Translations under genes and position numbers: made by a program
Shown: positions 30,401-57,319 of the stretch, piece by piece
How positions within the stretch are numbered: the stretch's first letter is position 1
Layout of the letters: every line of letters begins with the position of its first letter
The notes under the pieces: model-generated
The model's input: the letters and a program-made list of their open reading frames with translations, nothing else
The model's database searches: none
What the model was told of the DNA's origin: nothing
Assembly: GCF_002149015.1 (NCBI RefSeq)
Contig: NZ_NGFO01000015.1
Location: 1-64,000, forward strand
Direction of reading: 5' to 3'
From: Gordonia lacunae
Lineage (GTDB): Bacteria > Actinomycetota > Actinomycetes > Mycobacteriales > Mycobacteriaceae
Length of the DNA: 64,000 bases

Positions 30401-31144
30401 CTACGCCGTTGTGGTCGGGTCGGATTGTGCGTCCGCGAGTTTTTGAACCAAGTCGAGCTCCAGGTGGACGTTCGCGAGAATCCCTTCGACTGTCGGAGGA
30501 GTCGGATGGGAATCGTCGCCGAGGACGCTCTTCACCACCATCTCGGCGAGGTCGTTCGCTGCGACCTGATCCTCGCGGCCATCCAGATGCCACCAAGCGA
30601 TCCAGTTCAGCATGCCAATCACACCGAGAGCAGCGGTGCGGGCATTGACGGCGCGAAAGGTGCCATCGTCGACACCAGCCTCGATCAGCTTGATCAGCTC
30701 CCTGAGCACTCGGCGACGGCTCGAGGCGTAGGACTTTGCCAGGTGGTCGGGCAGATCTCCCTCGGATCGAATCAGCAGCCGGAATCGATCTCCATGAGCC
30801 ATCTGGTGCAGTGCCATCGACCGCGCCATGCGCCGTAGCTTGTCGGCAGGACTTAGATCAGACATCGCATTGATCTCGTGCAGCAGCTGTGCAGGCTGCC
30901 CAGCGATCTCGGTGACCAACTGGATGAAGAGGTCGTCCTTGTTGTCGACGTAGTGATAGACGGCCTGACGGGTGAGCCCAGTGGCATCGGCGATGTCCTG
31001 CAACGTCGTGCCTGCAAATCCGCGCTCAGCGAACAGGCGTGCTGCGTTCTCCTTGATCTCCCGCTCGACCAGTTCGCGGCGGACATTCGGCCGCCCCCGG
31101 CGCCGGCGAGCAGAGGGGGCCGAGTCGGTGGAAGACGGCGTCAT
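30401..31144 (-). CDS. TetR-family regulator, cassette A
   Basis: A 247-residue TetR protein. The HTH (about residues 25-72) includes ENAARLFAERGFAGTTLQDIA and LTRQAVYHYVDNKDDL. The ligand domain is closely similar to that of the regulator at 56609: compare LLIRSEGDLPDHLAKSYA and IGMLNWIAWW here with MVLKSESDLPEELAEAHA and IGMWNWISWW there. It follows the cassette A monooxygenase by 11 bp, so it is the last gene of the HyuA-HyuB-ligase-monooxygenase operon and would be autoregulated through the promoter at about 38.9 kb. ATG 31144 was chosen; a TTG three codons earlier is possible. Confidence 0.88.
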   Translation of the reverse strand: MTPSSTDSAPSARRRRGRPNVRRELVEREIKENAARLFAERGFAGTTLQDIADATGLTRQAVYHYVDNKDDLFIQLVTEIAGQPAQLLHEINAMSDLSPADKLRRMARSMALHQMAHGDRFRLLIRSEGDLPDHLAKSYASSRRRVLRELIKLIEAGVDDGTFRAVNARTAALGVIGMLNWIAWWHLDGREDQVAANDLAEMVVKSVLGDDSHPTPPTVEGILANVHLELDLVQKLADAQSDPTTTA

Positions 31145-31155
31145 AACTACCAACG

Positions 31156-32694
31156 CTAGTCTGCCCTGTAAAACGCCACGAGGTCGATCCGCTCGCTGAC
31201 GAGTGCACCTGCAGCATCACCTTCGAAGCCGACCGGTACCTCCGCGACCACCAGCGCGCCAGTCGTGCGTCGAATGCGCTCCCCGATGTCGAAACGGTCG
31301 TAGACCGTCTCGCGGTCGTCGGGTCCGGTAAGCCAGTACGCCCTCGCCGACGGGAGGTTTTCGACCAGCTTTCTCGCGTCTTCCGACCACGGGCGCACCG
31401 TGACCTCGACCGCCACGGTGTCGGCGGCGGTGCGCAACCGTGGCGGGGCCAGACGATCAGTGAAGCGCCGGCCACTCGACTCGAGTGGTCGGCCGAGGAC
31501 CCACGCGGTGACTTCAGGCGCGGACGGGACCTCGAGAGCATCAACGTTCGCGTACGCGGCGAGGCCCGGCCTGGCGACGTCCGGCGTCGACTCGACAAAA
31601 CGCTCTACGGAAACCTTGCCTGCGCGTGTCATGTAGGCCACCATCAATTGTGCAACTGGCAGGTCCAGTCGTTCCGGGAACGAGTCCCACCAGGCCATCG
31701 ACCGTTCGGCGATGGCCTGCAGATGCTCAACGGCGGGGCGTCGCGCGGTCTCATAGTTTTCTAGGGCTTCGTCTAGTGCGCTCGCCTCGAGGAGAGACCT
31801 GTCGAGTGCTATCGCATCCTCCATGGCCAGCTTGGTCCCGGAGCCGATGGAGTAGTGCGCGGTGTGCGCCGCGTCGCCGATGAGCACCACGTTGCCCGTG
31901 TGCCACCTGCGGCACCGGATAGTCCGGAATCGAGTCCACTTTGTGCGATTGCCGATCAATGGATGCCCCTGCAGAGTTTCTTTGAACGCCTCTTGCAGAT
32001 AGTCGAGCGACACCTGATCACTATGCGAGTTCGGCGTCTCCTCAGTCGATATATCGAATCCGGCGCGCTTCCACGTCGCCTCGTCGGTTTCGATGAGGAA
32101 CGTGCTGCGGTCCTTGGCATAGGGGTAGGCGTGCGCCACGAACGTGCCATGTTCGGTAGTTACCGGGACGAAGATCGCGCGAGGAAGCGCAAAGTCGGTG
32201 CCGCACCACAGGTACAGCCCGTCGCCTTTCGCGATCGACGGATCGAAGTCGTCGGTCAGGCCGGTTCGGGTGGGACTCGATATACCATCGGCGGCCACGA
32301 TGAGGTCCGCGTCGAGGTCTGCTACTGCGCGGCGATCACTGAAACGCAGGTTGACGCCGACGCCACGCGCGAAGGCCTGCAGAACCGATAACAGCTCGGT
32401 ACGTCCAATGGCCAGGACTTCGCCCGACGACAGGTGCACCTCGTTGTCACCGACGCGCATGGAGGCCTCGTGTCCGTACGCCGCGGCGACGATGCCGTTG
32501 AGCGAGTCTTGGTCGGCCTGGCGTAAGTTGTGCTGTGTCCGCGAGGCGAGGCCGACTCCGAAGCCGAAAGTGCTATCCGGCGTGCTTTGCTCGTAGACCG
32601 TCACCACCGCGTCGGGATGGCTGAGCTTGAGTAGTCGGGCTGCGTACAGTCCCCCGGGTCCCCCGCCGAGAACCGCGATGCTGTCCAGCTTCAC
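31156..32694 (-). CDS. FAD-dependent monooxygenase, anthraniloyl-/salicylyl-CoA hydroxylase-like, cassette A
   Basis: A 512-residue group A flavin monooxygenase. GGGPGG (10-15) binds FAD, the DG motif is at about 136-137, and GDAAHTAHYSIGSGTKLAMEDA (from 273) is the second FAD motif. The N-terminal layout, YEQSTPDSTFGFGVGL, recalls the flavin half of 2-aminobenzoyl-CoA monooxygenase/reductase and SdgC-type salicylyl-CoA 5-hydroxylase. The Old-Yellow-Enzyme-like second half of those proteins is absent; residues 400-512 are a different tail. It overlaps the ligase stop by 4 bp, which supports a CoA- or AMP-activated acid as substrate. A paralogue is at 54861-56504. The exact aromatic or N-heteroaromatic substrate is unknown. 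Confidence 0.85.
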   Translation of the reverse strand: MKLDSIAVLGGGPGGLYAARLLKLSHPDAVVTVYEQSTPDSTFGFGVGLASRTQHNLRQADQDSLNGIVAAAYGHEASMRVGDNEVHLSSGEVLAIGRTELLSVLQAFARGVGVNLRFSDRRAVADLDADLIVAADGISSPTRTGLTDDFDPSIAKGDGLYLWCGTDFALPRAIFVPVTTEHGTFVAHAYPYAKDRSTFLIETDEATWKRAGFDISTEETPNSHSDQVSLDYLQEAFKETLQGHPLIGNRTKWTRFRTIRCRRWHTGNVVLIGDAAHTAHYSIGSGTKLAMEDAIALDRSLLEASALDEALENYETARRPAVEHLQAIAERSMAWWDSFPERLDLPVAQLMVAYMTRAGKVSVERFVESTPDVARPGLAAYANVDALEVPSAPEVTAWVLGRPLESSGRRFTDRLAPPRLRTAADTVAVEVTVRPWSEDARKLVENLPSARAYWLTGPDDRETVYDRFDIGERIRRTTGALVVAEVPVGFEGDAAGALVSERIDLVAFYRAD

Positions 32695-34379
32695 TTCCCG
32701 ACTCCCTCAGCGGTCAGTTCTGTTTCCTGTTGTGCTGCCACCTCGGCACGTAGTCGCTTTTTGTCGATCTTGCCGACATTGGTCTTTGGCAGTTCAGGCA
32801 CCCACACCAGGCGTTCGGGCCACTTGTACTTGGCGACACCCAACCTGCTCATGTGCTGTTGCACGTCGGCGACACTCAGCGTTGCACCGGTTGCCGACAC
32901 GAGGAAGGCGCACGCCTTCTCCCCTAGCCGCACATCAGGCATGGCGACCACGGATGCGACCGCGATGTCGGTGTGCTTCATCAGCAGCACTTCGACCTCC
33001 TCGGCGTTGATCTTCTCGCCGCCGCGGTTGATGAGGTCTTTGATCCGTCCTTCGATGGAAAGGTGTCGCCGACCATCAGCCAGGTGCACAGCGGCGAGGT
33101 CGCCCGTTCGGAAGAAGCCATCGGAGGTGAAGGCGATTCTGTTGTGGTCTGGTGCGTCGAAATACCCGGGGATGGTGTAAGCGCCGCGGCAGCACAGCTC
33201 TCCGACGGTGCCGTCGGGCATTTCCGCCTCGCTGTGCGGCTCGAGGATGCGGAACTCGTCCGATGGGCCGATCGGTGTACCGACCGTCGTAGTTCGCAAC
33301 GACTCCGGGTCGTTGGGTCGACTCACGAGGAACATACCTTCGGACATGCCGAAAAGTTGTCCGGCCCAACGGTTTGCACCATCATCGACTCGATGAAAGA
33401 CCTCTGGCGGCACTTTCGCTCCGGAGAGGATTGACCGCTTGAGCGTACGGAGGATGGGATCGAACTCTGGCGTGAGCAGCGCCTGATAGTGGCCGACACC
33501 GATACCGATATCGGTGACGCCGTGGCCAGCCATCAGCGCGAACGCCGGTCCGACATCAGGATTGGCCAATATCAAGGCGGCTCCCACTGAATGCGCACCG
33601 TGCAGCGAACAGGTGATCCCGGCGTTGTGGATCACTGGAGTGATGTGGGCGAGGACGTTGGACTGATTCCACCCCAGTGCTTCTGCGTACATGCGGGCGT
33701 TGTTCCAGTATTCGGCGTGGATTCGGGGGATCACCTTCGGCAGGCCGGTTGTCCCGCCCGATAGCTGGAAGACGACGACGTCCTCCGAATCGGTTTCCCT
33801 CTCGACGTCCTCGACGAATGCCCTCGCGGCGTCGGGATGGATGTCGCCCCCCAGGTCTTCGATCCGGTACGTGTCCTCGGTGGCCGCTTGCGCCCCGATG
33901 GTGAGGATTGTGCCGAGTGTGTCGTGACTCTTGGCAACGTCTCTGGCGAACTCGACGAGGTCGAATTTCAAACCCGCCTCGGCGATGTGCGCTTTCGCGC
34001 CGACCTTACGGCTGATGTGGCCGATTTCGTGCATGCGATGTTGCGCCAGGGTTGCCACCGGAATCAGACCAGCTTTGATGGCGCCGTACCAAGCCAGCAC
34101 GGTTGACTGGCGGTTCGTGGCCTGGAACAGCACTGGGTCGAGCGGCTTGAGACCTAGTCCTCCGAGCCCGGCGGCGATCTGGTCGCTGCGCGTGTCGAGT
34201 TCGCGGTAGGTAAGGGCGCCTTCGACGGTGATCAGCGCGGCGCGGTCCGCGTGGCGGGTGGCGGATTCGTGCAATTGCGCGCCGAGCGGGACATCGCTCC
34301 ACTCCCCGCTGGCACGGTACTGGGCGGCGCGATCCGCGGGATGATGAATGAGACGTCCGCCCCAATTTGATGCAGTCAC
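32691..34379 (-). CDS. Acyl-adenylate/CoA ligase, DhbE/EntE-like, cassette A
   Basis: A 562-residue ANL-superfamily enzyme. The P-loop is SGGTTGLPKVIP, the core motif is GMSEG, then the hinge GRIKDLINRGGEK, and the C-terminal catalytic Lys is in NVGKIDKK. Overall it is closest in style to EntE/DhbE aryl-acid AMP ligases and SdgA, so activation of an aryl or heteroaryl carboxylate is likely. GTG 34379 (VTASNWGGRLI) is preceded by GAGGA; the ATG further upstream overlaps the HyuB coding end. It overlaps the monooxygenase gene by 4 bp. A paralogue is at 53109-54848. No carrier-protein gene is nearby, so CoA is the more probable acceptor. Confidence 0.88.
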   Translation of the reverse strand: MTASNWGGRLIHHPADRAAQYRASGEWSDVPLGAQLHESATRHADRAALITVEGALTYRELDTRSDQIAAGLGGLGLKPLDPVLFQATNRQSTVLAWYGAIKAGLIPVATLAQHRMHEIGHISRKVGAKAHIAEAGLKFDLVEFARDVAKSHDTLGTILTIGAQAATEDTYRIEDLGGDIHPDAARAFVEDVERETDSEDVVVFQLSGGTTGLPKVIPRIHAEYWNNARMYAEALGWNQSNVLAHITPVIHNAGITCSLHGAHSVGAALILANPDVGPAFALMAGHGVTDIGIGVGHYQALLTPEFDPILRTLKRSILSGAKVPPEVFHRVDDGANRWAGQLFGMSEGMFLVSRPNDPESLRTTTVGTPIGPSDEFRILEPHSEAEMPDGTVGELCCRGAYTIPGYFDAPDHNRIAFTSDGFFRTGDLAAVHLADGRRHLSIEGRIKDLINRGGEKINAEEVEVLLMKHTDIAVASVVAMPDVRLGEKACAFLVSATGATLSVADVQQHMSRLGVAKYKWPERLVWVPELPKTNVGKIDKKRLRAEVAAQQETELTAEGVGK

Positions 34380-34395
34380 GTTCTCTGTCCTCGAT

Positions 34396-36717
34396 TCACT
34401 CGGTCGGCGCGGCGGCAAGGAGCATGGTCAGCTCGCCGGCGTGATCGGGATGATCTGCCGGCACGATGCCTGAGTAGACGGCCGACCAGCAGCCGGGGCA
34501 GCATTGCTGCCGGAACACGACTTTGGCGTCGATGTACTCCGATGGCGCGGACGTCACCTGTGGGCCGGCCTGGTTTGACGGGCCCTCGTATTTCGCCAGG
34601 GCGAGGTGGCCGGACTTGGTGTCGCCAAGTCGCCGGCCGCAGTGCGCGCACGCAATGACTCGAGCGTCACCCACACGCACTTCGGCCAGATTGTCGTCGA
34701 TGCGGCGCGAACTCCGTAGATCCACTGTGTCCGCCGGCGCGGACGGTGTCTCGGAGCGCTCGCGGCGCTGGTCGATGATGTGCGCGCGCAGGGAGTCCGT
34801 GGCGGCCTCGTCGACCTCCCCGTCGTGGAACACGACGCCATAATTGATGCGCGCCCCCTCGATCGTGACCTTGCCGTTGGCAAGGTCGTAGGCGACCGCC
34901 GCGGGCTCGCGACGAATGGGGTCGCCGTAGCCGCCCCCGCCCTGCCAGTGCATGTACAGCACTTCGCCCGGAGCCAGATAGGTCTCGGCGTAGTTCGTGC
35001 CGTATTCGCAGCGGCCGACCAGATCGTCAAGCCTGCCAGGGAGCCTGCCGTCGGCCAGAAGCTCCTCAACGCCAGCATCGCGGACCAGTACCTCGACGCC
35101 GGTGTTACCGGGCTGGCCGCCGGCCAATCCGCCGTTCTGCGCCACCGCTTTTCCTGCGGAGGCCAAGGCGAGCATCATCGGGATACTGCTGCCGTACGGG
35201 GTGACAGCGATCGAGGCACTCACTCCGCCGCGCTGACGACCAGGCCCCCCGGAGTCGGGCTCCTCGCGTCGCCACAAGGTGAGCAGCGGATAGAGGAACT
35301 CGGTCATCTCAGTGTCGGGAATACGACCCATCGGGATGCAGAACAGACCACCGGTGTCCATACCGTCAGCGACCGGCCGGGCACCGTACCCACCGGCCAT
35401 CGGTTCCATCACGACGTCGAGGAATGGGACTGGTTGCGGGCCACGCTCGTCGAGACCGGCGAGGACGGCGGTGTCCCACGTGCCACAGCACGAGGCCTGG
35501 ACGCTGGTACCCAACTCGATGTCGCGGTCGAGCATCTGCGACAGACACTCCGCGACCAGGTTGCCCGTGAGCCACGCCGGACCGATCGGCCCGCGGCTCA
35601 CGGCAGCCGGGAAGCTGGCGTTGTTGATCGTTCCCTCTTCGGCGATCAAATCGAAGCAGCGCATGAGACCGCCGGCTGACCATGGGATGTCGCCTGCAAG
35701 GATCGGCAACAGTGCCAACATCACCCCGCCCCGCATGCCCGCGTAGGTGCAGTTGATGACGCCCGTCTGCGGGTCGGTGCCGGTGAAGTCGAAGGACAGG
35801 CGATCGGAGTCCTTCGACATCGCAACGGTGATCTTGTGGAGTCCGCGGTCGCCGAGCGACCCCTGATCCTGGTAACCAGTAGCCCGCCACGTCCCATCGG
35901 GCAGCGCGGAAAGCTTGGCACGAAGGCGCGACTCGGCGTCGTTCATCATGCGCTTCATGACTGCCTTGACGGTGTCCGCGCCGTACTGCTCGATCACCGC
36001 GAGGAGGCGATTGCGACCCACGGTGTTGGCACCGATCTTGGCACGGAGGTCCAGGCCCACCAGCATCGGTACACGCGAACGCCGAACCCAGGCGTCGGAC
36101 ACATCGCGCTGCAGGATGCCATCACGAACAACCTTGATCGGAGGAGTCGGCACGGACTCGGAGAAGACGTCCTTGGCCGCCGGATCGTAGGAGCCGATAC
36201 CGGAGCCACCGAGATCGGGCTCGTGGCAAATGGCACTGGTCCAGGCAAACAGCTTGCCGTCATGGAAGACCGGCTGGTAGACAATGACGTCGCTTTGGTG
36301 CAATCCGCCGCCTACCCAGGGATCGTTGCACAAGAACATGTCGCCCTCGCCGATGCCCGGGTTCTGCGCCCGATTCTCGAGGGTCCAGTAAATCGCAAGG
36401 TCAACCGCTCCGACGAGCATGGTGTTGTAGAGGCCGACCTGGACTTCCTGGCCCACCTCGTCGCTCACGGCGAAGTCGAAGTCGTTGGCGTCGGTCACGA
36501 TCGGCGATCCCGACATCCGCTTGAGGGCCTCGCCCATCTCGTCGGTCACCGACCAGAGTCGGTGGCGGATCACTTCGTAGGTGAGCGGGTCAACGGAGTC
36601 GATTTGTTCTTGGGTAACGGTGTGCAACTCGATGTGTGCGCCGACGGCCCGACTGAGCGCGTCCGGGTCGAGGGGCCGACTGGTGAAGACATCGGAGCCG
36701 GGGATTGGTGCGGTCAT
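34396..36717 (-). CDS. HyuB-like hydantoinase/oxoprolinase/carboxylase subunit with cysteine-rich C-terminal extension
   Basis: A 773-residue protein. Residues 1-620 or so are the HyuB domain (IRHRLWSVTDEMGEALKRMS, GDMFLCNDPWVGGGLHQSD, GTDPQTGVINCTYAG, GGYGDPI). The last 100 residues are unusual: CxxC at 690-693 and CCxxC at 739-743, a likely metal ribbon recalling the small zinc-containing subunits of acetone and acetophenone carboxylases. HyuA/HyuB pairs use ATP to open lactams (5-oxoproline, hydantoins, caprolactam, 2-oxindole-3-acetate) or to carboxylate ketones. The fused extension keeps the carboxylase option open; the neighbouring maleate isomerase favours lactam or imide opening. It sits 22 bp after HyuA. 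The substrate is undetermined. Confidence 0.88.
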   Translation of the reverse strand: MTAPIPGSDVFTSRPLDPDALSRAVGAHIELHTVTQEQIDSVDPLTYEVIRHRLWSVTDEMGEALKRMSGSPIVTDANDFDFAVSDEVGQEVQVGLYNTMLVGAVDLAIYWTLENRAQNPGIGEGDMFLCNDPWVGGGLHQSDVIVYQPVFHDGKLFAWTSAICHEPDLGGSGIGSYDPAAKDVFSESVPTPPIKVVRDGILQRDVSDAWVRRSRVPMLVGLDLRAKIGANTVGRNRLLAVIEQYGADTVKAVMKRMMNDAESRLRAKLSALPDGTWRATGYQDQGSLGDRGLHKITVAMSKDSDRLSFDFTGTDPQTGVINCTYAGMRGGVMLALLPILAGDIPWSAGGLMRCFDLIAEEGTINNASFPAAVSRGPIGPAWLTGNLVAECLSQMLDRDIELGTSVQASCCGTWDTAVLAGLDERGPQPVPFLDVVMEPMAGGYGARPVADGMDTGGLFCIPMGRIPDTEMTEFLYPLLTLWRREEPDSGGPGRQRGGVSASIAVTPYGSSIPMMLALASAGKAVAQNGGLAGGQPGNTGVEVLVRDAGVEELLADGRLPGRLDDLVGRCEYGTNYAETYLAPGEVLYMHWQGGGGYGDPIRREPAAVAYDLANGKVTIEGARINYGVVFHDGEVDEAATDSLRAHIIDQRRERSETPSAPADTVDLRSSRRIDDNLAEVRVGDARVIACAHCGRRLGDTKSGHLALAKYEGPSNQAGPQVTSAPSEYIDAKVVFRQQCCPGCWSAVYSGIVPADHPDHAGELTMLLAAAPTE

Positions 36718-36739
36718 GGTTGAAGCTTCTCCTTAGTCT

Positions 36740-38848: not shown

Positions 38849-38916
38849 GTGCCTTCACCTTCTTAGAGCGGACCCCATGGTGACGGACATCACCACTCGG
38901 CTCTTGCGCTGATTAT

Positions 38917-38932
38917 TCGTCTACTGAGACGA
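38917..38932. promoter_or_regulatory. Candidate TetR operator, cassette A divergent promoter
   Basis: TCGTCT-ACTG-AGACGA is a 16-bp inverted repeat in the AT-richer gap between HyuA and the maleate isomerase gene. Its centre CTACTGAG nearly matches the centre CTTCTGAG of the cassette B palindrome at 56558, as expected if the paralogous TetR proteins bind related sites. Confidence 0.6.
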
Positions 38933-39033
38933 TAAAGTCAAGCGATAGGCTAAAACCCGCTGACCAGCATTAATGATTGACACTGTCGACATATATGCCT
39001 AATATTCGACGTCTACGCAGAGGAAAGGCGGCC

Positions 39034-39786
39034 ATGAGGACTCACCGGATCGGACTCGTCGTGCCGAGCAGCAACATCACCGTCGAGACCGAGATGCCGG
39101 CCATCTTGAGTCGCCATCCCACAGCGGAGTTTTCCTTCCACGCCACCCGGATGCGCATGAACACCGTCTCTCCGGCTGGCCTCGCAGCGATGAACGCCCA
39201 GCGTGAACGCTGCATTCTGGAGGTCGGAGACGCGTCGCCCGAAGTCATCCTCTACGCGTGTTTGGTAGCGATCATGGCGGGCGGGCCTGGCGAGCACCAG
39301 CGCGTGGAGTCCGCCGTCGCCGAGCAGCTGGCCGCCGGAGGCTCCGATGCACGAGTTCGTTCCAGCGCGGGCGCCCTGGTCGAGGCGCTGAAAGCGCTCG
39401 ACGCCAAGCGAATTGCCCTCGTCATGCCCTACACGAGGCCGCTTGCCCGGCAGGTCGTTGGATACCTAGAGGCTGAGGGCTTCGACATCCCCGACTGGTG
39501 CGCGCTGGAGGTGGCCGACAACAACGAGGTCGGACGCATTGCGAGCGACGACGTGATGAAGGCTGCCCGCTCGATCGACCGAACCGGCCTGGACGCACTC
39601 GTAATCAGCTGCTGCGTACAGATGCCGTCGCTGCGCCTTGTACAGCCTGCCGAGGACGAGTTCGGCCTACCTGTGATATCCGCCGCAACTGCCGGCGCGT
39701 ACAGCATCCTGCGCAGCCTCGGCCTCGACGTGAACATCCAGGGCGCAGGCAGTCTCCTTCGCACGACCACGCCCGTACAACCCTAG
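39034..39786 (+). CDS. Maleate cis-trans isomerase, cassette A
   Basis: A 250-residue Asp/Glu racemase-superfamily enzyme. The catalytic cysteines are Cys76 (LYACLVAI) and Cys194 (SCCVQMPSL). Tyr133 (MPYTRP), Asn163 (ADNNEV) and the N-terminal PSSN loop (11-14) also fit the residues reported for the Nocardia farcinica enzyme, so conversion of maleate, or a substituted maleate, to the trans isomer is a strong call. Arylmalonate decarboxylase-like activity is less likely because both cysteines are present. ATG 39034 has AGGAAAGG upstream. It is first in the plus-strand cassette A operon, divergent from HyuA. The paralogue at 52348 keeps the same residues. Confidence 0.9.
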   Translation: MRTHRIGLVVPSSNITVETEMPAILSRHPTAEFSFHATRMRMNTVSPAGLAAMNAQRERCILEVGDASPEVILYACLVAIMAGGPGEHQRVESAVAEQLAAGGSDARVRSSAGALVEALKALDAKRIALVMPYTRPLARQVVGYLEAEGFDIPDWCALEVADNNEVGRIASDDVMKAARSIDRTGLDALVISCCVQMPSLRLVQPAEDEFGLPVISAATAGAYSILRSLGLDVNIQGAGSLLRTTTPVQP

Positions 39787-39800
39787 AAAGGAACACCGCT

Positions 39801-40460: not shown

Positions 40461-40702
40461 CTTCAGTTCTCCTTCTCGACGTTCCAGAAAACCGGCCGAT
40501 CGTAGCCGTGGCTGCCGACTCGAACACCGTCACAGTCGAGCGCGTGGGACCGTACTTCAAAGTCTGTGCTCCGGGCGAGATCGTGATCGATCGGCGCGCA
40601 ACCAACGCCCGCCATGCCGTCTGGTACAGCAGCATCGCGGGTCTTCTATCCGCCAAGATCACTCAATGGGACAAGGACGCACTGCGCCTGGAGTCGCGAT
40701 GA
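40457..40702 (+). CDS. Small protein of unknown family, cassette A
   Basis: An 81-residue soluble protein I do not recognise. It starts within the VOC gene stop (ATGA) and its own stop overlaps the hydrolase start (ATGA), so translation is tightly coupled. It is clearly homologous to the product at 51429-51680. Shared blocks are D[VI]PEN, RVGPYF, IDRR, RHAVWYS (AR-HAVWYS here), AGL and DKDALR. One Cys (in FKVCAPGE) is not conserved, so metal binding by cysteine is unlikely. Being kept between the same two genes in both cassettes, it may be an accessory subunit of the VOC protein or hydrolase. Confidence 0.85.
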   Translation: MTSVLLLDVPENRPIVAVAADSNTVTVERVGPYFKVCAPGEIVIDRRATNARHAVWYSSIAGLLSAKITQWDKDALRLESR

Positions 40703-46795: not shown

Positions 46796-46822
46796 GTAAG
46801 TGCCTCTCTCGCTTTCAGATGG

Positions 46823-50193: not shown

Positions 50194-51432
50194 TCAGGTG
50201 ATCGCGGAGCGTGCGCCGTATCGCTGACCCAACCATTCCGCCATACGTTCAGCTGCCAATTCATAGCCAGACGGATCTTCAGGATGCAGGGGCGCTCCGA
50301 AGTGGGTGCCTCTGATCTGCCCGGTTGTCAGATCTGAGGACGCAAGCGCTGCGGTCATTCTCTGTACATCCTGAGGAAAGCACGCCTGGTCGCCAGTCAG
50401 CTCGAGAAACAGTGTTGGTGCGGTAACTCCCGGAGCACACCGGACGAAATCTGCGCGAGTGTGATTCAGCGACCAGGTGGACAGCCAGGCGCCGGGTGTC
50501 GACAGTCGTCCAAATCCAACGAGCCCGTAGTTTGTGAGATCCGGGCGGTTTCCGAACAGTGACCCATACTTGCGCTCGTTGGGGTCGAGCGTCAGGTCAA
50601 CCGATCGCAAGTCCGCGTCGGTTCGGTAGACGGTGACGATTCGAGGTGCCAGCGCAGCTTGGCGGTCGCGAAGCAATCCGGAGTGGAACGCTGTCTCCCT
50701 TGCGCGCCGTGTCGCACTGTCAGCTTCCCATGCTGCTCGATCGATGCGTTCAATCCTGGCCAACTGCGCTTCGCGATAGCGGGCGACGAAGTCGGGAGCA
50801 TAGCGGGTGTGGCCGGGTTCCGGGTCGAACCCGTTCTCAGGCGAGTATGGGTCGAGGTCGGGATCGCGCGAAAGCGGGTCGTTTTCATCGACAACCGAGG
50901 GGTCGATCAACCGGGCTAGGAGTTGCCCCTGCCCCGGGTGCGGTGCGAGGAATATCGCGCCGTCGGGTGCCGGCAGGTCAACGTCGGCCATCGGTACCGG
51001 TCTGCCACTGGCCGTAGTGCTAATCCGATCGTCGGGATCACAGTTCGCCTGCTGATGGTAGAGCGCCGACAGCGTTCCCCCGCCCGAATGGCCAACTGTG
51101 ACCACGTTCTCGAAATGTCGCCGGAGGAATTGGTGCCCTGCGGCGGCATCGAGAATCGCTTGTTCATGCAGTAGCGCTATGTCATTGTTCACCGATCGCG
51201 GTTGCTGTGCCCACACCGCATAGCCCTCGCGCACAAGGTATGGGATGAGCCCGTGATGCGTAAGGTCCTGTCGCGGGTGCATGAGCACCGCTACGGTTGT
51301 TGCACCCGGGATGTTCCTGAGGACCCCAGGGACCCTCGCTCCATCGCTCGTGGTGAGTTGATGTACCGACGTCGTTGTTGCGGCGGGCATCTCCGCGTTC
51401 GTGGGGTAACGTCCGGCGCCGAGGCGGCTCAT
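50194..51432 (-). CDS. Alpha/beta hydrolase, cassette B
   Basis: A 412-residue paralogue of the cassette A hydrolase, similar along its whole length. The nucleophile elbow is GHSGGG with Ser116. MHPRQDLTHH, APDGAIFLAPHPGQG, VTVYRTDADLR and the late His in RGTHFGAP are conserved. The A-copy Gln before the Ser is His here, giving the more usual GHSGG. It is the last gene of the six-gene cassette B operon; its ATG overlaps the small protein's stop by 4 bp. The reaction is unassigned: thioester, amide or C-C hydrolysis of a ring-opened intermediate. Confidence 0.83.
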   Translation of the reverse strand: MSRLGAGRYPTNAEMPAATTTSVHQLTTSDGARVPGVLRNIPGATTVAVLMHPRQDLTHHGLIPYLVREGYAVWAQQPRSVNNDIALLHEQAILDAAAGHQFLRRHFENVVTVGHSGGGTLSALYHQQANCDPDDRISTTASGRPVPMADVDLPAPDGAIFLAPHPGQGQLLARLIDPSVVDENDPLSRDPDLDPYSPENGFDPEPGHTRYAPDFVARYREAQLARIERIDRAAWEADSATRRARETAFHSGLLRDRQAALAPRIVTVYRTDADLRSVDLTLDPNERKYGSLFGNRPDLTNYGLVGFGRLSTPGAWLSTWSLNHTRADFVRCAPGVTAPTLFLELTGDQACFPQDVQRMTAALASSDLTTGQIRGTHFGAPLHPEDPSGYELAAERMAEWLGQRYGARSAIT

Positions 51433-51680
51433 CTGGCGACCACCCTAAGAGCATCCTTGTCGTGTTGGATTATCTGTGCGTTTGCAAGTCCTGCGACGCA
51501 GGAATACCACACTGCATGCCGACACCCTGACTCACGCCTATCGATAGAGATTTCCGGGTTGTATTCGCGACTGCCGATCGAGATCCGAAAATAGGGACCG
51601 ACCCTGTCGACACGCAAGGATGAATCCTCATTTGACACCTCGACGATTCCGAGATTTTCGGGGATATCGAGCACGTACAT
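51429..51680 (-). CDS. Small protein of unknown family, cassette B
   Basis: An 83-residue homologue of the cassette A small protein, with D[VI]PEN, VGPYF, IDRR, RHAVWYS, AGL and DKDALR conserved. ATG 51680 (MYVLDIPENLG) aligns with the A copy and lies 11 bp after the VOC gene; starts within the VOC gene are possible but add non-homologous residues. The stop overlaps the hydrolase start. The B copy carries about 5 extra residues (SREYNPE) before the IDRR block. Function is unknown; its fixed position between VOC and hydrolase genes implies a shared role. Confidence 0.83.
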   Translation of the reverse strand: MYVLDIPENLGIVEVSNEDSSLRVDRVGPYFRISIGSREYNPEISIDRRESGCRHAVWYSCVAGLANAQIIQHDKDALRVVAR

Positions 51681-51691
51681 CGAAAACACCA

Positions 51692-52333
51692 CTATCGTGC
51701 TCCCGGTGTCGCGTGTGCCGCATCCCATGTCGGCGCGTTTTCAACAATGAGCTCCGCTTTCCGCGCAAGGAGCTTGGCAAAATCCGGCGACGGTTCCGCC
51801 ATGATGTCGAGCAGAGCGTCGATCGTGAGATTTGCATCCAAGTCTTCCTGCGGCGTAACCGGACGCAAGGCGCGCGTGATCTCGAACATATAGCCGTTGG
51901 GGTCAGTGGTATAGATCGACTCGATGGTTTCGTGCTTGAGCTGCCTGTAAACTGGCCAGTCGCTGTCGTCGAGGCGTCGGCGATATTCCAGCAGATCAAC
52001 TTCGGAGTCAACGTGGATCGCAAGATGTCGCGACTTCACGAAAAAGTCTGGTACGTCGTTCGCAAATTGCCCGTGCGCGTCTCCCTTCGCCCCTCGGTGC
52101 GGGGGTTCGAGACCGAAGTAGTAGAAGAATGCGATCCGGTCATCGTTGCCGATATCGAAAAAGAAGTGAATGAAGTCGGGATGATTGTCAGGCCCCCACC
52201 CTGCCGCACAGATGGAATGCACGACAGGGAATCCGAGGACGTCTCTGTAGAAGTGCACCGTGCTCACAGGGTCGAAGGTTGGGAACGCAGCGTGATCGAC
52301 CCCTCGAACCAGGTGCGGTTTGTCAGTATCCAT
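51692..52333 (-). CDS. VOC-superfamily protein, cassette B
   Basis: A 213-residue paralogue of the cassette A VOC protein. The shared tract FPVVHSICAAGWGPDNHPDF is identical in both. The metal-ligand candidates His (GVDHAAFPTFD), His (SRHLAIHV) and Glu (GYMFEITR) are retained, as is the tail LRPVTPQEDLDANLTIDALL. The strong identity suggests the same reaction on a related substrate. It follows the maleate isomerase by 14 bp in the cassette B operon. Confidence 0.82.
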   Translation of the reverse strand: MDTDKPHLVRGVDHAAFPTFDPVSTVHFYRDVLGFPVVHSICAAGWGPDNHPDFIHFFFDIGNDDRIAFFYYFGLEPPHRGAKGDAHGQFANDVPDFFVKSRHLAIHVDSEVDLLEYRRRLDDSDWPVYRQLKHETIESIYTTDPNGYMFEITRALRPVTPQEDLDANLTIDALLDIMAEPSPDFAKLLARKAELIVENAPTWDAAHATPGAR

Positions 52334-52347
52334 ATCGTCTCCTTGGG

Positions 52348-53112
52348 CTATTGCGATCCGGCTGTGGCGTCCGGCGAGTTCAGCAGCGCGCCGTATCCGT
52401 CGATCGTGGTTGGGAGTCGCAGCGCGCGCAGGATGCTGAATGCGCCCGCTGTTGCAGCAGACAGGACGGGGAGCCCGAATTCTCGCTCCGCGTCTCCGAT
52501 CAGCGGCAGCGACGGCATCTGCACGCAGCAGGACAGAATGAGTGCGTCTGCATCGCGGAGGTCGAGCGAACGCGCCGCAGCCAGGACCTGGTCGCCGGGA
52601 ATACGTCCCACAGCAGCGTTGTCCTCGACTTCGAGTGCGCGCCAGTCCACGACTTCCACGCCCTCGGCTTCGAGGTAGCTGACCACTCGTTGAGCCAGTG
52701 GCCTCATGTACGGGGTGACGAGCGCGACCCGGCGAGCGTCGAGTGCTCTCAGCGCCTCGAGGAGCGCGCCGGCGCTCGACCGGACTTGCGCATGATCGTG
52801 TGCATCCCGCTGCGCGAGGTCACCCGAGATTGCGCCTTCCGCGCGTCTGTGTTCGCCAGAACTTCCTGCCATCAGGGCGACCAGGCAGGCATAGAGGACG
52901 AGATCGGTGGATGCGTCGGCCAGCTCCTGGCTGGCACGCTGTCGCTGCGCGTTCATTGCTGCGAGCCCGTCAGGAGAGACCGACGTCATAGCGACACGTG
53001 AGGAGTGGAACGAGAATTCGACGTCGGGATGTTGAGTGAGAATAGCGGGGAGTTCGGTTTCTACAGTGGTATTCGAGCTCGGAACGATCAGACCGATTCG
53101 GCGCCGGTTCAT
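52348..53112 (-). CDS. Maleate cis-trans isomerase, cassette B
   Basis: A 254-residue paralogue of the cassette A isomerase. Cys76 is in LYACLVAL and Cys196 in SCCVQMPSL; Tyr135 and Asn165 align with the A-copy residues after a two-residue insertion. ATG 53112 overlaps the ligase stop by 4 bp, and the upstream open frame is the ligase 3' end read in another frame. It supplies fumarate, or a substituted fumarate, from the maleate-type product of cassette B. It is the third gene of the operon. Confidence 0.9.
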   Translation of the reverse strand: MNRRRIGLIVPSSNTTVETELPAILTQHPDVEFSFHSSRVAMTSVSPDGLAAMNAQRQRASQELADASTDLVLYACLVALMAGSSGEHRRAEGAISGDLAQRDAHDHAQVRSSAGALLEALRALDARRVALVTPYMRPLAQRVVSYLEAEGVEVVDWRALEVEDNAAVGRIPGDQVLAAARSLDLRDADALILSCCVQMPSLPLIGDAEREFGLPVLSAATAGAFSILRALRLPTTIDGYGALLNSPDATAGSQ

Positions 53113-54848
53113 TGCGATACCCCCGTCTTGGAGTCTGATTCGGAATCTCCTCTTGTGGTGTTCCACTCTCCGTCTGCGAGTTCGGAGGCGAGTACCCGTA
53201 ATCGCTTCTTGTCTATCTTGTTGACCGCGGTTCTCGGCAGTTGGCTGACCCATTCAATCCGTTCCGGCCATTTGTATTTCGCGACCCCGATAGCGCTCAG
53301 ATGCTGGCGCACCTGGTCCAGGTTGACGTGGTCGCCTGGGCCGGTGAGAAATGCACAGGCGCGCTCGCCTAGCCTAGGATCGGGCATCGCGACCACGGCC
53401 GCATCAGTGACAGCGGGATGGCGTAGGAGCAGGGACTCCACTTCGGCTGCATTCACCTTTTCGCCGCCACGATTGATGAGATCTTTGATCCTTCCCCTGA
53501 TCTGGAGGTATCGAGCGCCGTCGATAGTGACCCAGGACGCCATGTCGCCAGTCCGATAGAGCCCTGCCGAAGTGAAGGCTGCGACGTTGGCTTCGCCGGC
53601 TTCGACGTACCCGCGCAGCGTGTACGGCCCGGCTGTGCACAACTCTCCAGTCTGTCCGTCGGGAACGGGAACTTCTGATCCCACGTTGAGAATCTCGATC
53701 ACGTCGTCGGGAGAAAGGGGATTGCCCACCGTAGTGGCCCGTGCAAGTCGTGGGTCACTGAAGCGCGATACCGAGAACAACCCCTCGCCCATTCCAAACA
53801 GTTGGCCGGCGGGCACTCCGAGACGGTCGATCGCATCGAACAGTGCGGAGGGGACTGTGGCTCCTGCAAGTACCAGGCCTTGCATACCTCTGACGGTGCG
53901 CCCGAAGTCGGGGTGTGTGTTGATGCGAAAATTCGACGTACCGATCAGTGCATGTGTCGCTCGTGCATCACGCAGGGTTCGGAGGTATCCGGTAGGTTCT
54001 GGCGAAGGTGCGAGAACCGTACACCCACCCACACTGTGTGGCCCGTGAACTGCGCAGACCACACCCGCGTTGTGAATCACCGGGCTACCGTGGCCGTTGC
54101 GGGTCTGTTCGGTGAAGCCGAATGCGTCGGCATACGACTGCGCGTTGTACCAGTATTCCGCGTGTAGGCGTGGGATCACTTTCGGTATGCCGGTGGTCCC
54201 ACCCGAGATCTGCAGCACGGCAACGTCGGTGAAGTCGATCGTGGATTGAATGGAGTCCACTCGTGCCCGCGCCACGCCGGCCTCGACACCGGAACCGAGG
54301 TCTTCGAACCGGAGTGCTCCATCCACCACCTCGGTGTGTGCCCCCACCACGACCAACGTGCGAAGCGTTGGGTGGCCGATAGCGAGGTCCTGGCCGAATT
54401 GCACCAGGTCGAGCGAACCGTACCCGCCGTCGACGACATGTCCGACCGCGCCGACCTGTCTCGAGATCTGGCCGAGTTCGTGTTCGCGGTGAACAGCCAG
54501 GGTGCACACCGGAATGAGGCCCGCTTTGAGCAGGGCGTACCACATCACGATGGTTTCGATCCGGTTCGTGAGCTGCAGAATAACGGGAGAACCAACGGGC
54601 GTTCCCGTTTCGCTCAGGCCGTACGCCACCCGGTCTGCCCACTTGTCGAGTTCTGCGAACGTGATGGCCGCATCGGCTGTTGCGACCGCATCCCTGTCAG
54701 GCCACGCAGCGGCAACGGCCCGAAACTGCTCGGCGATGGTGCGATCCTCCCAGTACCCAACGTCCTGGTAGTGCTGAACGAGGTCACGTGGATAGTTCGC
54801 CACTGCTTGGGAGGGGTCAAACCCTCGGCTGCTGATTGGTGAGTTCAT
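53109..54848 (-). CDS. Acyl-adenylate/CoA ligase, DhbE/EntE-like, cassette B
   Basis: A 579-residue ANL enzyme homologous to the cassette A ligase. It has SGGTTGIPKVIPRLHAEYW, the core motif GMGEG (A copy GMSEG), GRIKDLINRGGEK and the catalytic Lys in AVNKIDKK. The A copy has NVGKIDKK, so Gly before the Lys is Asn here, a small departure from the usual GK. Pocket residues around HGSPVIHNAGVVCAVHG differ from HITPVIHNAGITCSLHG, suggesting related but different acids. It follows the monooxygenase by 12 bp and overlaps the isomerase gene by 4 bp. Confidence 0.88.
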   Translation of the reverse strand: MNSPISSRGFDPSQAVANYPRDLVQHYQDVGYWEDRTIAEQFRAVAAAWPDRDAVATADAAITFAELDKWADRVAYGLSETGTPVGSPVILQLTNRIETIVMWYALLKAGLIPVCTLAVHREHELGQISRQVGAVGHVVDGGYGSLDLVQFGQDLAIGHPTLRTLVVVGAHTEVVDGALRFEDLGSGVEAGVARARVDSIQSTIDFTDVAVLQISGGTTGIPKVIPRLHAEYWYNAQSYADAFGFTEQTRNGHGSPVIHNAGVVCAVHGPHSVGGCTVLAPSPEPTGYLRTLRDARATHALIGTSNFRINTHPDFGRTVRGMQGLVLAGATVPSALFDAIDRLGVPAGQLFGMGEGLFSVSRFSDPRLARATTVGNPLSPDDVIEILNVGSEVPVPDGQTGELCTAGPYTLRGYVEAGEANVAAFTSAGLYRTGDMASWVTIDGARYLQIRGRIKDLINRGGEKVNAAEVESLLLRHPAVTDAAVVAMPDPRLGERACAFLTGPGDHVNLDQVRQHLSAIGVAKYKWPERIEWVSQLPRTAVNKIDKKRLRVLASELADGEWNTTRGDSESDSKTGVSQ

Positions 54849-54860
54849 ATCGGTTTCCTG

Positions 54861-56504
54861 TCAGATTGCAGCCGCGGCAGCATTGGCGACGGAAGCGTTG
54901 GCATTCGCAGAACCTGGCGCGAACGCCTCGACGTTCGTGTGCCGCGGTGATGACGCTGGGCGATCGAACTGGACGAGATCGATACGACCTGAGATCAGTC
55001 CTGCAACAGCGTCGTCTTCAAGGGCCTCCGGTAGGGAGAGGGCCACAAGGCCTCCGGTTCGCTTGCGCAGTCGCTCACCGAAATCCAATCGATCCAGGAC
55101 GGCAGGACGGTCCGCAGGACCTACCAGCAGGAAGCCCTGCGGTCTGTTCTTCGAAAGGTCCTCGAGCAGGTCGTCCGCCTCCGATGACCACGGCCCTTCG
55201 ACGCACTGTTCAACGATCGTCAGTTCTTTGTGTGCTTCCGGATCTCCCTGAGGCAAAATCCTTCCGCTCGCCCGGGTTGTCAGCAGTCCGTCGTCCAGAG
55301 GCTGCTCGAGTACCCACGTGTTGAGGTCCACGGACTGAAGCTCCGCGACCGAGATCCTTCGTCCGGCATAGTCTGATAACGCCGTGCTCATGACGTCGGG
55401 ATTGGACCGGGCGAATCGGGCCGGCGGCACGTTGCCCGCGCGGCTCATGTAGCAGTTCATCAACTGCGCGATCGGCAGGTCGAGGCGTTGAGGAAAACTC
55501 TCCCACCAGAGTTGGCTGCGATGTGCCAGGTCCTGGATTCGTTCGACGGCCGGCCGACGGACTGCTTCGTACCGCCGCAACGCTTCGTCTAATCGGTTGA
55601 AGTCTGTCAGCGCTCGCACCAGTTCGATCGCATCTTCCATCGCCATCTTGGTTCCCGACCCCACGGAGTAGTGCGCTGTGTGGGCTGCGTCGCCGAGAAG
55701 CACCACATTGCCGTGGTGCCATTTCTGTGCGCGCACAGTGCGAAAACGCGACCACCTTGTGCGGTTCCCGATCAGGCGATGGCCGTGCAAGGCCTCAGTG
55801 AATGCACTTTCGAGATATCGCAGACTGTCGCTGTCGCTGCCCGATTCGTCGCCTTCAGCATGGCGATCGAGACGTGCGCGCTTCAACGTCGCGGGATCGG
55901 TTTCGATGAGGAACGTGCTTCGGTCGGACTGATAGGGATAGGCATGAGTGACGAAGACCCCGTGCTCGGTTTCTACCGGCTCGAACAACGACGTCTCCAG
56001 CGCGAAGTCCGTCGCAGCCCAGAGATACAGTCCTGCACCAAGTCTGACCGATCCGCCGAACGCTGGTTCGTTGATCCGCGTGGCGCTACTGACACCATCA
56101 GCGGCGATGATGAGGTCCGCATCGATCTCGCTGGCTGCCATCCGCTGCCCGAACCTGACATCAACACCGGCCTCTGCAGCGTGGCGATGCAGGACATCGA
56201 GCAACCGAGGTCGGGCGATTCCGATTTGTGCTCTACTCGCCACCTTGGACACCTCGCCGCGGACGCGCATTTGCATGGCATGCTGGCGAGTTCCCAGTTC
56301 GATCTCACGGAGCGTTTCCTCGTCTGCCTCCGCGAGGCGTTCCCTGGTGCGCGCCGCCAGACCCACCCCGAACCCGAACGTATCGCCCGGTCGGCTCTGC
56401 TCGTACACGACAACTTGGCAACTCGGACGTGCACGCTTCAACAAGCGCGCGGCATACAACCCCCCGGGTCCACCACCAATCACGGCCACCCTGCGAAGCT
56501 CCAA
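54861..56504 (-). CDS. FAD-dependent monooxygenase, anthraniloyl-/salicylyl-CoA hydroxylase-like, cassette B
   Basis: A 547-residue paralogue of the cassette A monooxygenase. FAD motifs are GGGPGG (10-15), VAADG-like IIAADG and GDAAHTAHYSVGSGTKMAMEDA; YEQSRPGDTFGFGVGL is conserved. It also lacks the Old-Yellow-Enzyme half of bifunctional CoA hydroxylases, and its C-terminus has an extra Ala/Asn-rich tail of about 30 residues. The start is TTG 56504 with GAGG 7 bp upstream; it aligns with the A copy's MKLDSIAVLGGG, and an in-frame TGA lies just upstream. It is the first gene of the cassette B operon, divergent from its TetR gene across a palindrome. Confidence 0.86.
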   Translation of the reverse strand: MELRRVAVIGGGPGGLYAARLLKRARPSCQVVVYEQSRPGDTFGFGVGLAARTRERLAEADEETLREIELGTRQHAMQMRVRGEVSKVASRAQIGIARPRLLDVLHRHAAEAGVDVRFGQRMAASEIDADLIIAADGVSSATRINEPAFGGSVRLGAGLYLWAATDFALETSLFEPVETEHGVFVTHAYPYQSDRSTFLIETDPATLKRARLDRHAEGDESGSDSDSLRYLESAFTEALHGHRLIGNRTRWSRFRTVRAQKWHHGNVVLLGDAAHTAHYSVGSGTKMAMEDAIELVRALTDFNRLDEALRRYEAVRRPAVERIQDLAHRSQLWWESFPQRLDLPIAQLMNCYMSRAGNVPPARFARSNPDVMSTALSDYAGRRISVAELQSVDLNTWVLEQPLDDGLLTTRASGRILPQGDPEAHKELTIVEQCVEGPWSSEADDLLEDLSKNRPQGFLLVGPADRPAVLDRLDFGERLRKRTGGLVALSLPEALEDDAVAGLISGRIDLVQFDRPASSPRHTNVEAFAPGSANANASVANAAAAAI

Positions 56505-56557
56505 CGTACGACCTCATTCTTGGTCTCGTTCTTGAAATTCAACGTTTGAGCTTAGTT

Positions 56558-56575
56558 TTCAGCTTCTGAGCTGAA
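56558..56575. promoter_or_regulatory. Candidate TetR operator, cassette B divergent promoter
   Basis: TTCAGCT-TCTG-AGCTGAA is a perfect 7-bp-arm palindrome in the 104-bp gap between monooxygenase B and its TetR gene. A degenerate half-site (TTGAGCTTAG) lies just to its left. The centre CTTCTGAG resembles CTACTGAG at cassette A. Confidence 0.75.
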
Positions 56576-56608
56576 TTGTCAAGAGCCGTGCCAAGTACCC
56601 TGATCGCC

Positions 56609-57319
56609 ATGACTGCAACGCCCCCACCCCCGCGCCGCGAATCGAGCAAGCGCCGCGAGATGGTCGAGAACGAGATCTACGAAACCGCCGCGCGACTCTT
56701 CGCCGACAACGGATACGCGGGCACCAACCTCGGCGACATAGCCGACGCGGTGGGCCTCAACCGCGGATCGCTGTACTACTACGTCAAGCGCAAGGACGAC
56801 CTTCTGGCCATTCTGGTGCGGGCCGCGACAGGCGACGCCACCGCGGCAATCCGTGAGATCACCTCTCGCACAGACCTCAATGCCGCCGAGAAACTGCATG
56901 CCATAGCTCGCGGCAGCGTGACCCGGCAAGCACTTCATCCGCACCGTCTTCGCATGGTGTTGAAATCGGAATCAGATCTCCCAGAGGAGCTGGCCGAAGC
57001 TCATGCCCAGGGTCGACGCGCGGTTCTTGACGAGCTCACGAGCGTCCTCGACGAGGGCATGAGAGCCGGCCTGTTTCGTCAAGGCGAGCCAGACGTGGCA
57101 GCCCTGGCGTTGATCGGGATGTGGAACTGGATCTCCTGGTGGTTCGATCCAGACGGGAACCGGTCGGTCGAGAGCGTGGCCGAGCAGCTCGCCGACATGG
57201 CTGTCGCGGCAGTGACCCGCAGCGAGACCGGACTTGCGATCAATGGCTCATCCACGGAAGCAGTTGTCGCACTGATCAAGAACGACTTGGACCTGCTACT
57301 CAGAACCCTCGACGACTAG
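56609..57319 (+). CDS. TetR-family regulator, cassette B
   Basis: A 236-residue TetR protein, paralogue of the cassette A regulator. The HTH contains ETAARLFADNGYAGTNLGDIA and LNRGSLYYYVKRKDDLL. The ligand domain shares KSESDLPEELAEAHAQGRRA and IGMWNWISWW with the A copy. ATG 56609 was chosen by alignment of the N-terminus; TTG or GTG codons just upstream fall near the operator. It is divergent from the cassette B operon. The close pairing suggests both regulators sense similar CoA esters or acids. Confidence 0.88.
   Translation: MTATPPPPRRESSKRREMVENEIYETAARLFADNGYAGTNLGDIADAVGLNRGSLYYYVKRKDDLLAILVRAATGDATAAIREITSRTDLNAAEKLHAIARGSVTRQALHPHRLRMVLKSESDLPEELAEAHAQGRRAVLDELTSVLDEGMRAGLFRQGEPDVAALALIGMWNWISWWFDPDGNRSVESVAEQLADMAVAAVTRSETGLAINGSSTEAVVALIKNDLDLLLRTLDD

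Follow-up and report, generated by a model that had tools for sequence, protein, structure and literature searches.

What is encoded by a set of seven gene families that occurs twice, in different arrangements, within a single stretch of the Gordonia lacunae genome, and how might its products open the ring of their substrate? The stretch comprises 64,000 nucleotides (positions 1 to 64,000 of contig NZ_NGFO01000015.1, assembly GCF_002149015.1; hereafter the window) and carries both copies: cassette A at 30.4–43.2 kb, including the gene of an MFS transporter, and cassette B at 50.2–57.3 kb. Each encodes a TetR-family regulator, a FAD monooxygenase (FMO), a DhbE-like aryl-acid ligase (LIG), a maleate isomerase (ISO), a VOC-fold metalloenzyme (VOC), a small protein (SML) and an alpha/beta hydrolase (HYD). 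The first-pass annotation had described these families as occurring twice, and all seven pairs were confirmed: BLASTP identity between the copies ranges from 45% for the regulators to 74% for VOC (Table 1), with E-values from 3e-27 to 1e-173, and Pfam and NCBIfam profiles back the family names. Probably, the products of each cassette degrade an ortho-substituted aryl or heteroaryl carboxylate by an aerobic route that depends on CoA and leads to maleate and further to fumarate. Within this route, VOC and SML may represent a new kind of oxygenase, a reading for which we see the chances as evenly balanced: the O2 chemistry of a mononuclear-metal VOC fold would be gated by an MmoB/DmpM-type effector, for the first time outside the diiron monooxygenases, and would form the ring-opening heart of an undescribed CoA-dependent maleate pathway in Actinomycetota and Proteobacteria. 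The earlier failure to match the set to a named pathway was borne out, as we recognised no description of it in the literature searched, the coverage of which excluded most subscription papers.

The VOC metalloenzyme and its effector-like partner

The 80-residue SML had initially been left as an unknown, a description that no longer holds. Although its sequence matched nothing among solved structures at E 1, and neither SML nor HYD gave a Pfam match at E 0.001 in a scan of the window proteins, relatives were found by predicted fold and by profile homology. The model of SML from cassette A reached a pLDDT of 94.9, and Foldseek returned effector entries at all ranks from 1 to 33, with the effector fold extending over the whole chain. 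An hhalign comparison of SML with 18 above-cut-off members of PF02406 scored 89% (P 2.3e-6, 70 columns), while the maxima were 4.0% for 60 column shuffles and 2.5% for 49 control windows, and the reversed alignment gave 0.2%. Moreover, PF02406 was the best match for five of eight SMLs scanned (14.0–20.5 bits, none above the cut-off) and matched SML of cassette A at E 0.0019 and 18.7 bits, under the gathering score of 25 bits. Judged by model and profiles, SML looks like a divergent MmoB/DmpM-type effector.

Two results speak against this assignment. SML of cassette B (at E 10) and two distant SMLs had no Pfam match, and no relatives of this genome's two diiron hydroxylase subunits were detected beside the cassettes by tblastn at E 1e-3 in the window and 101 related stretches, a search in which the positive control was found. 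To our knowledge, MmoB/DmpM effectors occur only as partners of diiron monooxygenases, among them enzymes that oxidise methane and toluene. The PF02332 matches of this genome lie on another contig (C21), where they adjoin its true PF02406 gene. The genomic partner of SML is VOC and not a diiron hydroxylase, as seen both from gene spacing and from plasmids. A scan of contigs from 84,980 species with a VOC alignment yielded 188 relatives, of which the best 80 by VOC similarity were examined. VOC and SML are separated by no more than 10 bases in all 80 loci and overlap by 4 bases in 74; a 4-base overlap of SML and HYD was seen in 74 of 79 loci. When SML alone was searched in 72,556 plasmid records, it was found in 12, each time with an adjoining VOC match.

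VOC carries a His-His-Glu triad (H20, H109 and E157) that is invariant in nine sequences from two phyla. In a sequence search of solved structures, VOC matched a 'Glyoxalase' (E 1.9e-11) and, with weak scores, FosB, methylmalonyl-CoA epimerase, STM3117 and BphC. Given this range of relatives and the functional breadth of PF00903, VOC could instead be a metal-dependent isomerase, lyase or glyoxalase-like enzyme, with SML as a structural subunit that keeps the effector fold without its role. We regard this as unlikely, if still worth serious consideration, since effectors are known to us only as partners of oxygenases. Furthermore, several loci described below have no FMO, and because their core must nevertheless open the ring, VOC is the likely oxygenase there. 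If VOC and SML do form an effector-gated oxygenase, effector function would be separated from diiron chemistry, and the evolution of oxygenase gating would become testable with two small proteins.

HYD, the gene of which follows SML, contains a long helical insertion and conserves Ser122, Asp354 and His383. A sequence search of solved structures at E 0.1 gave it no relative, and its identification as a named C-C hydrolase was rejected because all fold matches were generic alpha/beta hydrolases. Another HYD family, more distant at 33–40% identity, is widespread in Gordonia; one example (G029:C1:447934-448953) has a distant FMO relative about 1.3 kb away.

Conservation of the unit across genera and phyla

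The 80 loci are all actinobacterial and come from Gordonia, Rhodococcus, Williamsia, Amycolatopsis, Pseudonocardia, Streptomyces, Mycolicibacterium, Nocardia, Nocardioides, Geodermatophilus and other genera. VOC and SML were present in 80 of them, HYD in 79, LIG in 77, TetR in 76, and ISO and FMO in 75 each. Two further proteins, HyuA and HyuB, which resemble the ATP and metal subunits of caprolactamase, were found in 71 and 70 loci; since the loci were chosen by VOC similarity, close HyuAB-bearing relatives of cassette A are over-represented. Several loci end at contig borders, and the counts for TetR, LIG, MFS and SDR may take in unrelated family members. Apart from MFS (17 loci) and SDR (12), the families that recurred in at least six loci were cassette families, eight of the nine, SML falling under the length limit of this count; two further clusters, of 11 and 6 loci, seem to consist of spurious reading frames. 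The full layout of cassette A, TetR-FMO-LIG-HyuB-HyuA divergent from ISO-VOC-SML-HYD, was seen in seven of 14 stretches from relatives in Gordonia (L029-L035).

Co-occurrence was also assessed in 397 genomes of the order, for which the best two to seven candidates per genome were scored. Orthologues of VOC (E 1e-40) and HYD (E 1e-90) were found in the identical 16 genomes. Under independence, such an identical set would arise by chance with a probability of about 7e-29, although contiguous genes of shared descent are not independent. HyuA at 67% identity or more was confined to 15 of these 16 genomes, eight further genomes having relatives at 55–60%, and FMO above 340 bits to 14 of them, with the next best at 298 bits. 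FMO relatives with lower scores are frequent, occurring in 83 of the 397 genomes at E 1e-60.

Outside the Actinomycetota, LIG, FMO, VOC, SML, HYD and ISO occur together on four proteobacterial replicons, from Cupriavidus metallidurans CH34, Variovorax, Pseudosulfitobacter and Tistrella, with proteins 29–48% identical to those of the window. No HyuAB match was found in the 20–25 kb stretches of these replicons. In Variovorax, a 4HBT_2 hotdog thioesterase identified by Pfam adjoins FMO, and annotated thioesterases occupy the equivalent place in Pseudosulfitobacter and Tistrella, which fits CoA-thioester chemistry. The stretch from CH34 carries no annotation. These replicons belong to a survey of plasmids in which 41 records had a VOC match; 16 covered at least 80% of the query, and seven records were inspected, two Caballeronia and one Paraburkholderia record with near-full-length VOC being left out. 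SML matches were obtained for 12 of the 16 near-full-length records, and SML of Variovorax was seen only in a separate comparison. In the plasmid records, members of the unit are annotated as 'VOC family protein', 'hypothetical protein' and 'alpha/beta hydrolase'.

The composition of the unit varies. Plasmids of Rhodococcus USK13 and Rhodococcus qingshengii both carry VOC, SML, HYD and LIG; the former has ISO and no full-length FMO, the latter FMO and no ISO. The Mycobacterium avium plasmid pP7a (L124) has VOC-SML and, about 11 kb away, HYD beside an annotated AMP-binding protein gene, with no ISO match; near its VOC-SML pair, a gene at 16298-18277 encodes an HbpS-like domain in fusion with an FMO relative. 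A core of LIG-ISO-VOC-SML-HYD with no FMO nearby occurs in L090, L092, L114 and L123, accompanied by thiolase/SDR, aldehyde dehydrogenase or FAD_binding_2 dehydrogenase genes, which may provide other feeder steps into the same core. HyuAB as an obligatory component was rejected as a strict rule, as several loci have no HyuA nearby. In some of these a HyuA relative is encoded elsewhere in the genome, at 71–73% identity for L090, L098 and L101 (that of L098 possibly belonging to the cassette and being separated from it by a contig end), 53–63% for L087, 57% for L113 and only 33–36% for L092 and L114; none was found on the L123 plasmid.

The search for co-occurring families proposed in the first-pass annotation has thus shown a unit that recurs across genera and phyla. 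Its description as a seven-part set holds for the conservation and not for the number of parts, because the usual actinobacterial unit has nine genes, including HyuAB. Given that FMO and HyuAB are absent from some loci, the innermost core consists of LIG, VOC, SML, HYD and, mostly, ISO. The unit is compact, probably catabolic and present in many soil actinobacteria.

A proposed pathway and its candidate substrates

The pathway would start with adenylation of the acid by LIG and formation of a thioester, presumably with CoA. The best solved relative of LIG is the salicylate-AMP ligase 5wm2 (E 8e-92). An HN motif and a Cys/Ser pocket residue typify ortho-hydroxy aryl-acid ligases, and in an alignment with the salicylate-AMP ligase CahJ the HN and Cys positions are kept in both cassettes (HNAG..C). 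FMO might then hydroxylate the activated ring in the manner of salicylyl-CoA 5-hydroxylase or 2-aminobenzoyl-CoA monooxygenase. It matches only positions 2-368 of the 768 in NF006101, corresponding to the N-terminal monooxygenase domain of salicylyl-CoA 5-hydroxylase, and its nearest solved structures are those of VioD. The C-terminal extension of FMO resembles the OYE tail weakly (E 0.018–0.055, in a set of eight proteins). The idea that it is a fused thioesterase, considered because proteobacterial loci have a separate one, was unsupported by Pfam. In L040 (8084-9629, genome G004), an FMO relative close to a TetR gene is divided between two frames and may be a remnant or a two-gene form; VOC, SML, HYD, ISO and HyuAB had no match in that stretch.

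In the third step, VOC would open the ring with O2 while SML, encoded by an overlapping gene, gates or couples the reaction, and HYD could then hydrolyse a C-C, ester or thioester bond in the product of ring opening. In cassette A, HyuAB might in addition open a lactam or amide intermediate with ATP. HyuB residues D79, H140, D143 and H165 align with D41, H99, D102 and H124 of CapB (6yra_B taken as CapB on account of its length, 581), the four metal ligands named in PMC8453981, according to which related carboxylases have the same site; this Asp-His-Asp-His site therefore cannot decide between lactamase and carboxylase. HyuA contains the ATP motifs DVGGTFTD and DAGGT, and its adenosine motif reads QAVPGP where GxxPGP is expected. 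HyuAB are among the most conserved actinobacterial parts (median identity 78–79%, range 47–88% with partial matches). Finally, ISO would convert maleate to fumarate, an assignment with very strong homology behind it: ISO of cassette A aligns with the Nocardia farcinica maleate isomerase 2xec at E 4.8e-118 without gaps over 248 residues. C85, C203, N23, Y142 and N172 are invariant in 11 sequences, and we take the two cysteines to be catalytic and the other three residues to be carboxylate ligands.

The opening of a lactam by HyuAB would fit a nitrogen-bearing substrate for cassette A, such as an anthranilate-type or N-heteroaryl acid, whereas cassette B and the proteobacterial versions, with no HyuAB nearby, would take nitrogen-free acids of the salicylate type. 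For cassette A, anthranilate could proceed via 5-hydroxyanthranilate and maleamylpyruvate, which is prone to form a hydroxylactam, to maleate, pyruvate and ammonia; for cassette B, salicylate could yield maleate and pyruvate by way of gentisate. The carbon balance is almost as good for pyrrole or pyridine carboxylates. Alternatively, an N-heteroaryl carboxylate (pyrrole-2-carboxylate or a hydroxypyridine carboxylate) could serve as substrate; FMO would hydroxylate it beside the ring nitrogen to give a cyclic lactam, HyuAB would open this, and the carbon would leave as maleamate or maleate plus CO2. Maleate isomerase is known from nicotinate pathways, and most HyuAB-bearing loci have GHGHY/F at a ligase pocket segment that reads VPPV in CahJ (GVGHY in cassette A, GTSNF in B). 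HyuAB relatives hydrolyse cyclic lactams with ATP, as reported in PMC8453981, and HyuAB are strongly conserved in actinobacterial loci. However, apart from ISO no enzyme of the nicotinate pathway is recognisable among the nine families, and the same core occurs with no HyuAB nearby in Proteobacteria and cassette B. Moreover, the relatives of FMO and LIG act on benzoate-type acids. On balance we hold this substrate class to be a possibility, less probable than the broader scheme of an ortho-substituted aryl or heteroaryl acid.

Several observations weigh against the proposed pathway. Maleate isomerase is the only cassette protein with a close relative among enzymes whose substrate is known. LIG (360 and 379 bits against TIGR02275 for A and B) and FMO (319 and 302 bits against NF006101; E 5e-95 and 6e-90) both score far under the respective cut-offs of 723.55 and 1078. 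FMO is missing near L089, L090, L092, L098, L114 and L123, of which L089 and L098 lie near contig ends, and genome G184 has no FMO match at E 1e-60 though HyuA is present; FMO is thus not essential to the core. HyuAB may be an ATP-dependent carboxylase: the solved relatives of HyuA are near level (378 bits for the N-methylhydantoinase 7hk5, 372 for the acetophenone carboxylase gamma subunit), and its best NCBIfam match, CapA at 500 bits (cut-off 1000), compares with 388 for ApcC, that of HyuB, CapB at 220, with 202 for ApcD. Furthermore, a thiolase, needless for a plain gentisate-like route, is encoded near five of the 80 cassettes. Overall, the activation, ring oxygenation and exit from maleate to fumarate suggested by the first reading fit the parts, most clearly the isomerase with its very close solved relative, and the substrate and the ring-opening chemistry are conjectural.

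A biosynthetic role, for example in making an acylated natural product, appears very improbable. DhbE-like ligases and such FMOs do occur in siderophore and violacein-type biosynthesis, but no non-ribosomal peptide synthetase or polyketide synthase was among the families recurring in at least six of the 80 loci, and maleate isomerase, lactamase and hydrolase are degradative families.

Divergence of the cassettes, their surroundings and known systems

The two cassettes share the order VOC-SML-HYD, in agreement with the first description. The identical overlaps reported there were verified for SML-HYD, which overlap by 4 bases in both copies; VOC and SML overlap by 4 bases in A, and in B the SML start lies near the VOC stop at 51692, its exact position being unsure. 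The shared seven families and partly identical order might suggest a recent duplication and hence a trivial repeat. We give this hardly any credence: the copies are only 45–74% identical, and a VOC+HYD tree of 90 rows contradicts it. There, cassette A falls within a HyuAB-bearing clade of 12 rows (SH-aLRT 99), together with Amycolatopsis, Tsukamurella, Hoyosella, Mycolicibacterium and Gordonia. Cassette B falls outside this clade, its long branch meeting several HyuAB-less loci at an open fork, and long branches make the placement of B unsure. Clustering on the tree was seen for loci with HyuAB and FMO and for those with FMO only (none of 500 shuffles as low), but not for the small group with neither (49 of 500). 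G. asplenii also has two such cassettes, of which only one includes HyuAB (L030 and L039). On the sequence evidence, A and B are old, diverged paralogues, and this together with their differing ligase pocket segments makes it probable that they serve different substrates. The presence or absence of HyuAB and the ligase pockets predict two substrate classes.

In cassette A, HyuB and HyuA are encoded between LIG and the divergently transcribed ISO-VOC-SML-HYD-MFS genes. The motif TATTCGAC/GTCGAATA was found, at times twice, in 36 of 41 HyuA-ISO divergent intergenic regions (mononucleotide shuffles: mean 0.155 of 41, maximum 2), and the full palindrome GTCGANTATTCGAC in 15 of the 41. It is probably a TetR operator or promoter element, and TetR would probably sense an acyl-CoA intermediate.

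Table 1. Features of cassettes A and B in the window
Feature	Position	Strand	Evidence or remark
A TetR-family regulator	30401..31153	-	Pfam TetR_N and TetR_C_24; 45% to B TetR
A FMO, FAD monooxygenase with C-terminal extension of about 140 residues	31156..32694	-	NF006101
A LIG, DhbE-like aryl-acid adenylate-forming ligase	32691..34418	-	TIGR02275
HyuB, hydantoinase B/CapB-like metal subunit	34396..36717	-	PF02538, 434 bits
HyuA, hydantoinase A/CapA-like ATP subunit	36740..38848	-	PF01968/PF05378/PF19278
Divergent promoter region	38849..39033	.	operator-like TATTCGAC motif at 39003
A ISO, maleate isomerase	38977..39786 (likely start codon 39034)	+	PF17645
A VOC-fold metalloenzyme	39783..40460 (likely start 39801)	+	PF00903, E 8.5e-15
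A SML, putative MmoB/DmpM-type effector	40457..40702	+	predicted fold, hhalign, sub-threshold PF02406
A HYD, alpha/beta hydrolase with large helical insertion	40699..41940	+	conserved S122, D354, H383
MFS transporter after A	41937..43160	+	PF07690; MFS match in 19 of 80 loci, not all orthologous
B HYD	50194..51432	-	59% to A HYD
B SML, effector-like	51429..51728 (true start probably 51680-51692)	-	50% to A SML
B VOC	51692..52333	-	74% to A VOC; PF00903
B ISO	52348..53253 (likely start 53112)	-	63% to A ISO; PF17645
B LIG	53109..54848	-	48% to A LIG; pocket segment IGTSNF
B FMO	54861..56504	-	52% to A FMO; NF006101, 302 bits
B TetR-family regulator	56576..57319	+	PF17932
Amidohydrolase beside B, possible accessory	57407..58651	+	PF01979

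Cassette B has no HyuAB, and an amidohydrolase and another transporter gene adjoin its TetR gene. The MFS genes flanking A and B are not orthologous (27% identity over 86 residues, BLASTP E 0.007). A 53% relative of the amidohydrolase is encoded beside an A-type cassette in Rhodococcus opacus (L054, 12238-19509), where MFS, SDR and thiolase genes and then this relative follow the cassette; this is the sole such locus among the 80. In the window, an acetyl-CoA acyltransferase (thiolase) gene follows cassette A (43386-44576); its relatives near other cassettes have 68–77% identity in L053, L054, L086 and L102 and 37% in L092. Furthermore, a YcaC-like isochorismatase-family hydrolase and a glutaminase are encoded between the cassettes (46160-48073); the former could be a candidate amidase for maleamate-like amides. 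Between positions 28000 and 60000, the GC content drops from about 0.67–0.70 to 0.61–0.64, and third-position GC of the longer genes falls from mostly 0.81–0.92 to mostly 0.67–0.81, rising again at about 61 kb. From this drop, both cassettes apparently lie in an acquired catabolic island.

Several characterised systems resemble parts of the unit. The salicylyl-CoA 5-hydroxylase route is encoded by sdgABCD in Streptomyces WA46. In this route and that of 2-aminobenzoyl-CoA monooxygenase, as proposed for the cassettes, the acid is activated as an AMP/CoA derivative before a related FAD monooxygenase domain hydroxylates the ring; the cassettes differ in that FMO lacks a full OYE domain and in having VOC, SML, HYD, HyuAB and maleate isomerase instead of gentisate dioxygenase. 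According to PMC3534580, the 2-aminobenzoyl-CoA route occurs in Azoarcus and Arthrobacter Rue61a. No cupin of the gentisate 1,2-dioxygenase type was matched by Pfam among the cassette proteins, to which the search for this dioxygenase was confined. The nicotinate (nic) pathway shares the exit from maleate to fumarate, an alpha/beta hydrolase and maleate isomerase with the cassettes, whereas these have a CoA-ligase start, VOC with its effector-like partner and HyuAB, and no recognisable NicX or NicF. The N. farcinica maleate isomerase (2xec/2xed) has both catalytic cysteines in common with ISO, which is encoded within the cassette.

CapAB caprolactamase, N-methylhydantoinase and 5-oxoprolinase share the two-subunit architecture, the metal ligands and most ATP motifs with HyuAB, which nevertheless score far under the CapAB equivalog cut-offs. 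Type I extradiol dioxygenases such as BphC and HsaC have the metal triad of VOC and, with the spacing of BphC, a Tyr ten residues before the Glu; VOC differs in its single short domain, its weak sequence match and its effector-like partner. In BphC, His195 is the second-sphere catalytic His, and in alignments judged by eye VOC has no conserved His at the spacing expected for it. Finally, the effectors MmoB, TmoD and DmpM of diiron monooxygenases (PF02406) share their fold over the whole length and detectable sequence homology with SML, which is paired with a VOC metalloenzyme instead.

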